DNA of 40,159 bases, taken from the NCBI GenBank assembly GCA_028291345.1, contig JAQGIF010000178.1, forward strand, positions 1 to 40,159, written 5' to 3'. The position numbers and the translations under genes were made by a program. The DNA comes from Rhodospirillales bacterium (GTDB lineage Bacteria > Pseudomonadota > Alphaproteobacteria > BOG-932 > Roseiterribacteraceae). Below the pieces are notes generated by a model, which was not told where the DNA came from, searched no databases, and saw nothing but the letters and a program-made list of their open reading frames with translations. Shown here piece after piece: positions 11,768 through 30,425 of the stretch (position 1 is its first letter; each line of letters begins with the position of its first letter).

Positions 11768-12973
11768 TTAACGCTGGGTCAGTTCGGTCGCGCCCGCCAT
11801 CGGCACGATCGTCGGATTGAGGAGGGCGCCGGGACGAATGCGCTGGAGACCGTCGATCACGATGCGATCTCCTGACTTCAGGCCGCTTTTGACGACCCGA
11901 AACCCTCCCGCTTCCGCGCCGAGGCTCACCTCGCGATAGACAGCCTTGTTGGCGTCGTCGACAACGATCACGAACCGCTTGTCCTGGTCGGTGCCGAGCG
12001 CTCGTTCGTTTACGGCCAGGACCGGCTCGGTCTTGGCCTGCCCCATGCGCAGCCGGGCGAATTGCCCGGGGATCAAGTTGCCATTCGCATTAGCGAAGAC
12101 GGCGCGCATCCGCACTGTGCCGCTCTGCGCGTCGACCTGATTGCCGATCATCTGCAGATGGCCTTTGAACGGGTCGCCATTGCCAACGGCGGTGATCATT
12201 TCGACGGGAATTTGATCGAGCAGCGCGGTCGTGTTCGCGTTGGTGCCTAGCGACGTTATCGCATTCGCCACCACCTGCTCATCGGCGTCGAAGCTGGCAT
12301 AGATCGGATCGACCGACACGAGGGTCGTCAGCACGGGGGAGCTAGGACCAGCTGCGATCAGATTGCCGATCGTGATCTCGGACCTGCCGACCCGGCCAGA
12401 GACAGGCGCGCGGATTTCCGTGTAGCTAAGATTGAGCTGTGCTGTTTGCAGGTCAGCCTGGCTGGCACGCAGGTTGGCCTCTGCCTCACGATTCGTGCTG
12501 ACGCGCTGGTCGACGCTGCTCTGCGAGATCGCACCGGCGCTCATCACGATCAGCTGCTGCGCGCGATCCTGTTCCTTGCGCGTCAGAGCGAGACGGCTTT
12601 GCGCGGCGGCGACGCGCGCGGCGGCGGCGTCGACCTCCGCCGCATAGGGCGCCGGATCGATGGTAACCAGCGGGTCGCCCGCCTTAACCAGCGCGCCTTC
12701 GCGGAAATGGATCGCCTGTACGGCGCCGGCGACGCGGGAGCGAACATCGACCCGCTCGACCGCCTCGAGCCGCCCAGAGAATTCATCCCAGCTGACGGCC
12801 TCGCGCGCCAGCACCGTCGCCACCGATACCGGAATAGCGGGCGCAACCTGACTGATCGGGCCGGCCCCATGTGCGTGATGGGCGGATAGGGCCAGGGGAA
12901 TGGCGATGGCGGCCCCGATGATCAGAGCGACGGCGGGAGCGAGAATTTTTTGACGAAAATTGGAATTTGGCAT
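11768..12973 (-). CDS. RND efflux periplasmic adaptor (membrane fusion protein)
   Basis: The 401-aa periplasmic adaptor linking the RND trimer to an outer-membrane channel. After an N-terminal signal or anchor segment (VALIIGAAIAIPLALS), the chain shows the paired lipoyl halves (GRLEAVERVDVRSRVAGAVQ with GALVKAGDPLVTIDP, and the return half SYTEIRAPVSGRVGR), an alpha-helical hairpin near residues 105-170, and beta-barrel and membrane-proximal parts (GNLIPGQFARLRMG; LKSGDRIVIDGLQRIRPG). It resembles MexE/AcrA. It lies between the degenerate hydrolase gene (30-base gap) and the pump gene (65-base gap) on the same strand, so coexpression is expected. Confidence 0.94.
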   Translation of the reverse strand: MPNSNFRQKILAPAVALIIGAAIAIPLALSAHHAHGAGPISQVAPAIPVSVATVLAREAVSWDEFSGRLEAVERVDVRSRVAGAVQAIHFREGALVKAGDPLVTIDPAPYAAEVDAAAARVAAAQSRLALTRKEQDRAQQLIVMSAGAISQSSVDQRVSTNREAEANLRASQADLQTAQLNLSYTEIRAPVSGRVGRSEITIGNLIAAGPSSPVLTTLVSVDPIYASFDADEQVVANAITSLGTNANTTALLDQIPVEMITAVGNGDPFKGHLQMIGNQVDAQSGTVRMRAVFANANGNLIPGQFARLRMGQAKTEPVLAVNERALGTDQDKRFVIVVDDANKAVYREVSLGAEAGGFRVVKSGLKSGDRIVIDGLQRIRPGALLNPTIVPMAGATELTQR

Positions 12974-26179: not shown

Positions 26180-26254
26180 GGGCGCGTAGCTCAGCGGGAG
26201 AGCACTTCCTTGACATGGAAGGGGTCGCAGGTTCAATCCCTGCCGCGCCCACCA
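26180..26254 (+). tRNA. tRNA-Val(GAC)
   Basis: 75-nt cloverleaf: acceptor GGGCGCG/CGCGCCC, D-arm GCTC...GAGC, anticodon stem CTTCC/GGAAG with loop TTGACAT (anticodon GAC), T-arm GCAGGTTCAATCCCTGC, encoded CCA. Complete and presumably functional. Its 3' part from the anticodon stem onward is duplicated 1.39 kb downstream, marking it as the attachment site of an integrated element. Confidence 0.96.
26205..26249 (+). repeat. attL: 3' part of tRNA-Val, left copy of 45-bp direct repeat
   Basis: Starts CTTCCTTGACATGG and ends CTGCCGCGCC, running from the anticodon stem to within the acceptor stem. It is identical over 45 bases to 27598-27642. A tRNA 3' end duplicated around an integrase remnant is the standard footprint of site-specific integration. 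Confidence 0.88.
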
Positions 26255-26268
26255 GATATTTCAACGAC

Positions 26269-27039
26269 TTAGCTGATTTGTAAGGCGCCTGGTTTTGCGC
26301 CATTGGCGTTCAATGTAAGGCGCCCTACCCCCCGCGATGCCCTAATGCTCCACTTCTCGACCGTCTCAGTCAGGATCGAGGCAACGCCGAACGAGAGCGG
26401 AATCGACACCCAAAGCGGCAACCCGAGGTCCCACATGATCGGCCAGTGGCATAGGTATAGTGGATAAGAAATCTTCCCAAGCCACTGCGGCACAGACATT
26501 TCTAACGGCGCCCAATGGAACTCGAACCGAGACAACCAGGCGCCCGCAAAGAAGCCCGCCCCGAATAGTGAATATCCGTTAAAGCTTCCAGCGACCACGC
26601 ACATCAAGAGGGCTATTATGAGCCGCGCACCCGATGCTCGGCCGACCCATACGAACAGGGGCATCGCAAACATTGCCCACGCTTCTACAGTGAGGGACCA
26701 AGCTGGCGGATCGACGACGGGTCCCGAGCTGGCGTCGCTCACGGGCAACCACAAAAACTGCAACGGGGAAGGGCTTTTATTGAGCAGCAGATAGCCCGCA
26801 GCAAGGCAGAGCGCGTAGACAGGCCATAGGCGAACAAATCGACGGGCTAAAAAATTGAAATAGCGCCCGTCCCATGACCGCGCAAGAACCTAGCCTGATA
26901 AGACAAAAAACATCAGAACGGCGATTTCCGATGGAGCCGCCAATGCGTAATAGCCGTGCATATTGGAGGCGTGCCCTGCCAGCACCACTACGGCGAGACA
27001 GCCGCGGAGGCCGTCGAGTGTTTGATTACGGGGCGCCAT
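26269..27039 (-). pseudogene. Acyltransferase-3 (OafA/YrhL-like) gene broken by an in-frame TAG
   Basis: Reading on the minus strand from ATG 27039 gives MAPRNQTLDGLRGCLAVVVL, the classic acyltransferase-3 N-terminus, running to VLMFFVLSG and then a TAG stop (26890-26892, codon 50) exactly where the family has FFVLSG-F/Y-VLA. The same frame continues VLARSWDGRYFNFLARRFVR, then the WSLTVE motif and KISYPLYLCHWPIM, to a stop at 26269. The full frame is about 256 codons, shorter than the usual 330-400. Such membrane proteins acylate O-antigens or other glycans. The start overlaps the end of the small upstream ORF. A single base change (or sequencing error) explains the break. Confidence 0.85.
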
Positions 27040-27217
27040 CCCGCTTGGTTATCGCGGCAGGCGTAATGGCGTTGTTATCGAACTCGCGGCCAAAGGCTAC
27101 CCTTTCCCGCGCCCTTAGCAATCGTTCGTTCCTAGCTGCCTGGGCTTTAACATAATCGGGGTCTGTCAGCGCGGACTTAGCCCAGAGGCTGACAAATGGG
27201 ATCTCCAGCTCGGTCAT
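27026..27217 (-). CDS. Hypothetical short ORF within the tRNA-Val element
   Basis: About 63 aa, unrecognised, charged and helical in appearance (ARNERLLRARERVAFGREFD). AAGGA lies a few bases before tandem ATGs at 27220 and 27217. Its stop overlaps the start of the broken acyltransferase gene by 14 bases, the arrangement of a coupled pair. It may be a true cargo gene or the tail of a larger gene truncated by the deletion that shaped this element. Confidence 0.3.
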   Translation of the reverse strand: MTELEIPFVSLWAKSALTDPDYVKAQAARNERLLRARERVAFGREFDNNAITPAAITKRDGAP

Positions 27218-27220
27218 CAT

Positions 27221-27525
27221 TTCCTTCTTGCCGGATTAACGAAGGCGCTTGCCACCAGCGATTATGTGATCAGTTATCGCGGTGAGAAGGTTAGCACGAT
27301 CAAACGCGGCTTTTCCTTGGCATGTAAGAGTGCCGGGTCGAAGGGTGTCTCCCCGCCCATTCTGCGTCATCCGGCGCCGACTTGGATGGCGCTGAACGGC
27401 GTTCCGATTAGCGAGATTGGACGTATGTTAGCGACGAAGGGAGAACCGTAGCGAAGGTCTATGCCAAGCATAAGCCGGAATATCTTCAGCGCACGGCGAA
27501 CGTCTTACAGCTCGATTTGGAGTAA
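27221..27525 (+). pseudogene. Tyrosine recombinase/integrase C-terminal remnant, frameshifted
   Basis: The plus frame through 27266-27451 encodes SDYVISYRGEKVSTIKRGF, then GVSPPILRHPAPTWMALNGV and PISEIGRML, clearly the C-terminal catalytic part of a phage-type integrase. The box-II motif HxLRHT has become PILRHP (His lost) and LGH has become LAT. A stop at 27449 is bypassed by shifting frame: VYAKHKPEYLQRTANVLQLD follows to a stop at 27523-27525 and contains the nucleophile tyrosine. The N-terminal two-thirds are gone. It sits about 70 bases from the right att copy, as expected for the element's own integrase. Confidence 0.83.
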
Positions 27526-27597
27526 GGAAAGGCACCTTAATTGTACGGCGCCCCTGGAAAATCTGAAAGGCTAAGTTATTGATAAAGCAGGTGTATC

Positions 27598-27642
27598 CTT
27601 CCTTGACATGGAAGGGGTCGCAGGTTCAATCCCTGCCGCGCC
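27598..27642 (+). repeat. attR: right copy of 45-bp direct repeat
   Basis: Perfect 45-base copy of 26205-26249, after which the match continues imperfectly (GCGCCACCCGATAT against GCGCCCACCAGATAT). It lacks the 5' half of a tRNA and is not itself a tRNA gene. Confidence 0.88.
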
Positions 27643-27702
27643 ACCCGATATCCACCTGATATCGCTGCCATGTCTAAAGCGCTTTATTCAGCCTCCGCCG
27701 AC

Positions 27703-29342: not shown

Positions 29343-29420
29343 TGAATTTTCTGGCAAACTGGAAACCCGCTAAAACAATGAGTTGTGTCGGTTGGCGCGG
29401 AATTTGCATTGTTGCGCATT

Positions 29421-30425
29421 ATGATGCTCACGCTTGAATCGCAGTTCGCAGCCCGGTCTGCCACGGCCGGCGCCTCGCCCATTGCGCGCGGCTTTATCGC
29501 CGCCGCCGCGGCCGTGCTCGGCCTTTTCGGCAGCGCCAGAGAGGCAACGGCGATCTCCGCGCCGATCACTCTGGGAACGGCAAGCAACTATGGCGTGCTG
29601 ACCGGCGACGGCGATACGCTGACCTTGGGCGGCGGGTTCAACCTTTCCGGCAATGTCGGCATCGGCAAGAACAGCACCGTCAATCTGGACGGCAACAATG
29701 CAATCGCGGGCAATACCTACGAGGATAGCGGCATTACCACCAACTATAATGGTGGCATGACCTGGCTTTCCGGCACCATCTATACCCAAAGCATGGCGAT
29801 CGCGATCGCGGACGCGAGCGCGGCCGCGACCAACGCCGCAGCCCTGGCCGCGAATCTGAGCGTTACGGGCAACACGATCAACCTGAGCAGCTCGTCGATC
29901 ACCATCAAAGCGCTGACCAACCTTAGCGAAAACGTGCTGAACATCAGCGCACTGAGCGTGGCGAACAGCACGCTGACTTTCGACGATAACGGGTTCACCG
30001 GCGCGAAATTCATCATCAACGTCACCGGGGCCTTTACCGTCAGCTCTTCCGGCACCGGCAAGAGCATCATCAAGGGCATCAACGGCGCCTCGGGGGCAGA
30101 CATCCTGTTCAATATCGAGGGCAGTTCCGGCACGGTTTCGATCACCGGCAACAGCACGAACCAGATCATCGGTACCTTGCTGTCGCCGGCGAGAAGCGTG
30201 ACCGTTGGTGGTGGCGGTAGTTTGGCCGGCAATATCATCGCGGGCGTGAAAAATATTTCGGGCGGCAGCACTATCTCGGACCAGTCCACCGGCTTCAACG
30301 TCAACGCCCTGGCATACGTCCCTCGGTCGGTCGTCAAAACGCCGGAACCGTCTTCGATCGCGCTTTTCGGCGCGGGCGGCCTGGCCTTGCTGGTGGTCCG
30401 CCGACGGCGGCCCACCAGCCGCTAA
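29421..30425 (+). CDS. PEP-CTERM exported beta-rich protein (ice-binding-like/choice-of-anchor-like)
   Basis: An exported protein of about 334 aa. A signal peptide (ARGFIAAAAAVLGLFGSAREATA) is followed by a Ser/Thr/Asn/Gly-rich beta-repeat body, and the C-terminus has the tripartite PEP-CTERM tag: PEPSS, a hydrophobic segment IALFGAGGLALLVV, and RRRR. Exosortase removes such tags and routes proteins to the surface or matrix (family knowledge); no exosortase gene is in the window. The body (LGTASNYGVLTGDG; SGNVGIGKNSTV; ADILFNIEGSSGTVSITGNS; SLAGNIIAG) recalls DUF3494 ice-binding and choice-of-anchor A proteins, without certainty. Neither the ATG pair at 29421/29424 nor GTG 29385 has a clear ribosome site, so the start is uncertain. 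Confidence 0.82.
   Translation: MMLTLESQFAARSATAGASPIARGFIAAAAAVLGLFGSAREATAISAPITLGTASNYGVLTGDGDTLTLGGGFNLSGNVGIGKNSTVNLDGNNAIAGNTYEDSGITTNYNGGMTWLSGTIYTQSMAIAIADASAAATNAAALAANLSVTGNTINLSSSSITIKALTNLSENVLNISALSVANSTLTFDDNGFTGAKFIINVTGAFTVSSSGTGKSIIKGINGASGADILFNIEGSSGTVSITGNSTNQIIGTLLSPARSVTVGGGGSLAGNIIAGVKNISGGSTISDQSTGFNVNALAYVPRSVVKTPEPSSIALFGAGGLALLVVRRRRPTSR

Follow-up and report, generated by a model that had tools for sequence, protein, structure and literature searches.

Eroded scar of an integrative element at tRNA-Val(GAC) in a Rhodospirillales genome, with a damaged far repeat

When a tRNA gene is followed within 1.4 kb by a second copy of its own 3′ part, the question arises whether a mobile element once integrated there and, if so, how much of it can still be read. 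We examined such a locus in a Rhodospirillales bacterium (assembly GCA_028291345.1), within a 40,159-nucleotide stretch of DNA that we call the window and that is contig C320 of the 401-contig assembly. The preliminary description had proposed the scar of an integrative element at tRNA-Val, and this reading is upheld by the structure of the att sites, an integrase remnant, arm-like motifs, a drop in GC content and two larger islands in relatives. We consider it very probable that an element entered at tRNA-Val(GAC) by means of its integrase, later shrank and is now eroding. The coordinates of the features are collected in Table 1.

A complete tRNA gene stands at one end of the locus, and a fragment of its 3′ part lies downstream in the same orientation. 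The two 45-nt direct copies are 100% identical over their length and 1393 bp apart, so the perfect repeat reported earlier is confirmed, and an exact match of this length is far beyond chance. With one gap allowed in a whole-genome BLAST search, the repeat grows to ~55 bp (26205–26259 and 27598–27651, 96% identity), and the gapped match takes in the acceptor end and five further bases, GATAT. Nor is the repeat spread over many sites, a pattern that had been named as one that would weaken the integration reading: BLAST found no third copy of the tRNA-Val(GAC) tail in the 5.6-Mb assembly of 401 contigs, where the next best match is a complete tRNA-Val(CAC) gene on contig C394, at 89%.

Table 1. 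Coordinates of the tRNA gene, the att copies and the features between them
Feature	Position	Strand	Basis
tRNA-Val(GAC), putatively regenerated target gene, attL side	26180..26254	+	ARAGORN + Rfam
Left copy of exact 45-bp att repeat; starts at 5′ edge of anticodon stem	26205..26249	+	repeat search, BLAST
Anticodon stem-loop CTTCC-TTGACAT-GGAAG, proposed core site with 7-bp crossover region	26205..26221	+	sequence, fold prediction, comparison with G184 att copies
TCAACGACTTAGC motif just past tRNA, proposed integrase-binding site	26261..26273	+	motif search
Acyltransferase-3 (O-acyltransferase) pseudogene, 256 codons, cargo	26272..27039	-	Pfam, PHROG
TGTAAGGCGCC, proposed arm-type site 1	26279..26289	+	motif search
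TGTAAGGCGCC, proposed arm-type site 2, 35 bp after site 1	26314..26324	+	motif search
64-aa ORF, just upstream of acyltransferase	27026..27220	-	no significant match
Tyrosine integrase C-terminal fragment, two frames (break near 27430)	27233..27525	+	Pfam, PHROG, alignment to relatives
TGTACGGCGCC, degenerate third copy of arm-like motif	27542..27552	+	motif search
TCAATAACTTAGC, the 26261 motif in inverted orientation, lying between the end of the integrase and the right att copy	27570..27582	-	motif search
Right copy of 45-bp repeat, putative displaced tRNA 3′ fragment (attR); extends to 27651	27598..27642	+	repeat search, BLAST

The anticodon loop is bracketed by the inverted repeat CTTCC/GGAAG in the predicted fold. 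In another genome of the class (G184), the att copies match each other from TTGACAT on and diverge immediately before it, and we therefore place the crossover, by comparison of these sequences, most likely in the anticodon loop. The motifs that flank the repeat are proposed as putative integrase-binding and arm-type sites. The sequence TCAAnnACTTAGC has exactly two sites in the window, 26261 (+) and 27570 (−), each within ~30 bases of an att copy; with up to one mismatch, 2 sites are found in the window against 0.19 expected, a figure that, like any chance figure for these motifs, is optimistic, the motifs having been picked after inspection. Similar sequences follow the tRNA in G184 and in a further genome of the class (G221) and precede the tRNA fragment in G184. 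A further TGTACGGCGCC site at 12717 is probably a chance occurrence. The 35-bp spacing of the arm-like pair recurs in the same genome (G000) on contig C394 (4226–4381, L037), where tRNA-Val(CAC) is followed by a TGTAAGGC(G/A)CC pair spaced as at the window's tRNA-Val(GAC). No second copy of the tail was found at that tRNA-Val(CAC), and a sister element may have left an older scar here. Hits to the arm pair in other contigs (Prevotellaceae, Xanthobacter and Nonomuraea) were set aside as incidental: there is no tRNA within the DNA fetched for any of the three, and the Xanthobacter hit is a short tandem repeat between other genes.

Between the ends, where a tRNA island has an integrase, lies a frame-broken C-terminal fragment, a remnant rather than a gene. 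Its match to the Pfam Phage_integrase family is weak (E 0.0064, or 0.0027 with both frames), its match to a PHROG integrase family reaches E 3.8e-5, and open integrases of other genomes of the class match it up to E 2.5e-22 at 36–47% identity; the tyrosine-integrase remnant noticed beside the right copy is therefore real. Alignment with 12 open relatives (265–439 residues) indicates that the last ~98 residues alone are left and that about 250 or more N-terminal residues are missing. The HxxR motif has Pro for His and the GH box was lost at the frame break, and the Tyr region can still be read (VYAKHKPEYL). The active site of tyrosine recombinases is known, and judged against it a protein without its N-terminal region, the HxxR His and the GH box is not catalytically complete and cannot be active. 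A search of the rest of the genome and of four further genomes of the order found no related integrase, and the target specificity of the enzyme is consequently deduced from the relatives at 36–47% identity. Phage and plasmid integrases, those of Azospirillum, Ruegeria and similar among them, gave distant matches alone (<40% identity), and viral contigs gave none.

Relatives of the remnant across the class point to the same kind of target. Among 289 genomes, 12 others carry an integrase that matches at E ≤ 1e-10, and a tRNA lies within 1.5 kb at 7 of the 12 aligned loci: Val(GAC) twice (G184 and G167), Val(CAC) once (G221), Thr twice, Gly and Arg. The G184 island has a full tRNA-Val(GAC) (2981942–2982016) and a 52-nt 3′ fragment (2920737–2920788) over a span of 61 kb, and the G167 island has a full tRNA-Val(GAC) and a 45-nt 3′ fragment over 4.1 kb; the integrase lies by the tRNA in both. 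At tRNA-Val(GAC), then, integrases of this kind accompany larger islands with ends of the same type. The two islands resemble the relic in their tRNA, in the type of 3′ fragment and in their related integrases (44% identity in G184, 37% in G167). They differ from it in that the integrase, a 439-residue ORF in G184, adjoins and faces the complete tRNA, and in their cargo, which in G167 includes an OLD/AAA-type ATPase (L094, contig G167:C1, 2859–4973, +) that resembles anti-phage defence proteins.

The orientation of the remnant bears on whether all parts of the scar have one origin. The remnant points toward the displaced tRNA fragment, whereas the integrase faces the complete tRNA in six relatives (L074, L075, L076, L079, L084 and L089; convergent). 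L078 is the sole relative with a codirectional layout, and it was rejected as a parallel to the relic, a search of the first 20 kb of its contig having found no tRNA fragment. Insertions at the tRNA, in tandem or one after another, could have left an att pair from one element and an integrase fragment from another, or an internal inversion could have turned the fragment around, and a composite scar of this kind would account both for the unusual orientation and for a deletion joint near 27225–27235, between the small ORF and the integrase fragment. We regard such an origin as unlikely, if still a serious alternative; TCAAnnACTTAGC reads from the core to the integrase (27582–27570), as it likewise does in G184 and G221, which suggests that the integrase belongs to this att site.

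The insert stands out in composition. Its GC content is 55.7% against 62–63% in the flanks, among the lowest 0.3% of 1343-bp windows. The acyltransferase has a single in-frame TAG (26890–26892, codon 50); read through with X, it matches Acyl_transf_3 at E 1e-20 and a phage O-acetyltransferase family of PHROG at E 4e-23. A search at E 1e-15 did not find it in 384 further genomes of the class, nor did phage records or viral contigs give a match. A PHROG hit of the 64-aa ORF, to 'tail assembly chaperone', is not significant (E 0.043), and the ORF has no match in viral contigs. The insert DNA matches no plasmid, and neither 42 bases of the att repeat nor the arm pair match any viral contig. Phage structural genes, by which a prophage would be known, are not recognisable in the insert. 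With one in-frame stop in 256 codons and a readable domain, the acyltransferase might be taken for a functional gene that was retained, which would make the locus a small living island; the position of the stop at codon 50, the dead integrase and the damaged right att end make this very improbable.

On the preferred reading of an integrated and later reduced element, the attP of a prophage, satellite or small genomic island, of a type no longer readable, would have contained a copy of the tRNA-Val(GAC) 3′ part. The tyrosine integrase of this element would have joined attP to the tRNA gene by crossover, most likely at TTGACAT in the anticodon loop, so that the tRNA was rebuilt with the element's 3′ end and the original 3′ end moved to the far side (27598–27651). 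Deletion would later have cut the interior to about 1.35 kb, so that an acyltransferase cargo gene, the small ORF and the integrase C-terminus are what is left. These remaining genes appear to be eroding, the acyltransferase through its TAG and the integrase through its frame break and lost active-site residues.

The one mildly unusual point of the relic is its damaged far repeat, with which excision would spoil the tRNA. The repeats had been described as intact, which holds for the identical 45 bp and fails just 3′ of them, where GCGCCCACCAGATAT in the tRNA corresponds to GCGCC-ACCC-GATAT in the right copy. The displaced fragment (CGCGCC-ACCC; in the tRNA, CGCGCCCACCA) has one C fewer in the run of the acceptor stem, and ACCC stands in place of ACCA. 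ARAGORN still recognises the modelled product of excision, the left half of the tRNA joined to the right copy, as a tRNA, in which the first acceptor pair is mismatched (G-A) and the 3′ end reads CCC. No second tRNA-Val(GAC) gene was found in the assembly, which is 97% complete, so that one may be missing; excision would therefore probably be harmful. Because the lost C and the change from CCA to CCC would give the tRNA a mismatched acceptor end, the relic is probably locked in place. A more far-reaching idea is that damage to the fragment acts as a genetic lock, loss of the scar being lethal or costly because it would leave a faulty acceptor end on the only tRNA-Val(GAC) gene detected, and that small scars with two att sites persist for this reason. 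We consider this unlikely. If it were true, and if damage near the discriminator proved enriched in long-resident islands, the effect would be a general stabilising one. Because one integrase family turns up at tRNA-Val again and again in the class, a simple survey could set fragment damage near the discriminator against loss of the integrase.

The preliminary description had also called the tRNA-Val locus a proven hotspot in this lineage, and here our results ask for a narrower statement. Across the class, repeated use of tRNA-Val by the integrase family is supported (G184, G167 and G221 and, more weakly, this genome's own tRNA-Val(CAC)). For the lineage, the wording is too strong: among five genomes of the order, one per species, the single syntenic relative, G001, has a contig with the window's right-hand genes (rubrerythrin-like, beta-lactamase-like and FAD oxidoreductase) that ends inside the tRNA-Val tail. 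An empty site was looked for in the relatives; besides the G001 contig, which stops within the tRNA, there is no GAC match in G002, and G003 and G004 have tRNA-Val(GAC) in a different, non-syntenic neighbourhood, where a second copy was not found. The tRNA-Val tail of G001 adjoins a block of ~8 kb (L030, G001:C152, 6250–14251) that was found in no other genome searched and encodes a decarboxylase, an aminotransferase, an outer-membrane protein and a TPR-S plus nucleotide-cyclase protein (11925–13808 of L030, minus strand); a motif like TCAAnnACTTA follows the tail. The block fits a different occupant of the site, seen at one end, and is not proof of one. N-formylglutamate-amidohydrolase-like genes, so named by resemblance, lie just upstream of tRNA-Val(GAC) in G003 (L033, 10218–11162) and G167 (L094, 6952–7872); the gene, absent from the window, is perhaps an ancestral neighbour. 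Further along the window (29385–30425, +) is a secreted-looking protein with a PEP-type C-terminal sorting signal and no Pfam match, which has a syntenic counterpart in G001.

The contigs of G001 also bear on the assembly. A false join of two contigs at the 45-bp repeat could be suspected in a genome of 401 contigs, the more so as G001 breaks inside this very repeat, and is rendered barely credible by one G001 contig that joins the tRNA-Val tail to the same right-hand genes and another that aligns with the part of the window on the left side of the tRNA, as far as about 22.2 kb, from which we conclude that the tRNA and its right flank belong together. Plain duplication of a tRNA fragment, with no site-specific recombination, is equally hard to credit: partial tRNA genes are reported as common in prokaryotic genomes (PMC9897764), whereas a 3′ part that starts at the anticodon stem, lies downstream, keeps the orientation of the gene and has an integrase remnant and motif pairs next to it is the signature of the islands catalogued by Islander (PMC4383910).

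In summary, the relic is a real and ordinary tRNA-island scar, new as an instance and known as a kind, and enlarges a familiar class by one well-documented relic of the end stage. The tRNA-Val-targeting prophage FhaGI-1 of Francisella hispaniensis, a distant host, and its integration vectors are described as likewise using a tRNA-Val gene, attL and attR and a site-specific integrase (PMC5861138, PMC7924643). The closer comparison is with the tRNA islands of Islander (PMC4383910), which share the complete tRNA, the downstream 3′ fragment in the same orientation and a tyrosine integrase between them, here a remnant, and whose 'A' crossover class begins, like the relic's repeat, at the anticodon stem. 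The relic differs in being 1.4 kb long with a dead integrase, which makes it hard to call automatically; it falls below the 2–200 kb length range of the Islander filter (PMC4383910), a search setting and not a biological definition, and relics of this kind would escape any search that demands a length of 2 kb or more and an integrase gene. Damage to the fragment has been recorded there too: 148 of 3919 islands are listed 'with damage', and islands are described whose tDNA fragment carries a small deletion located 3 bp before the discriminator (PMC4383910). The lesion in the relic's right copy is much like this, of a known kind and possibly the same.
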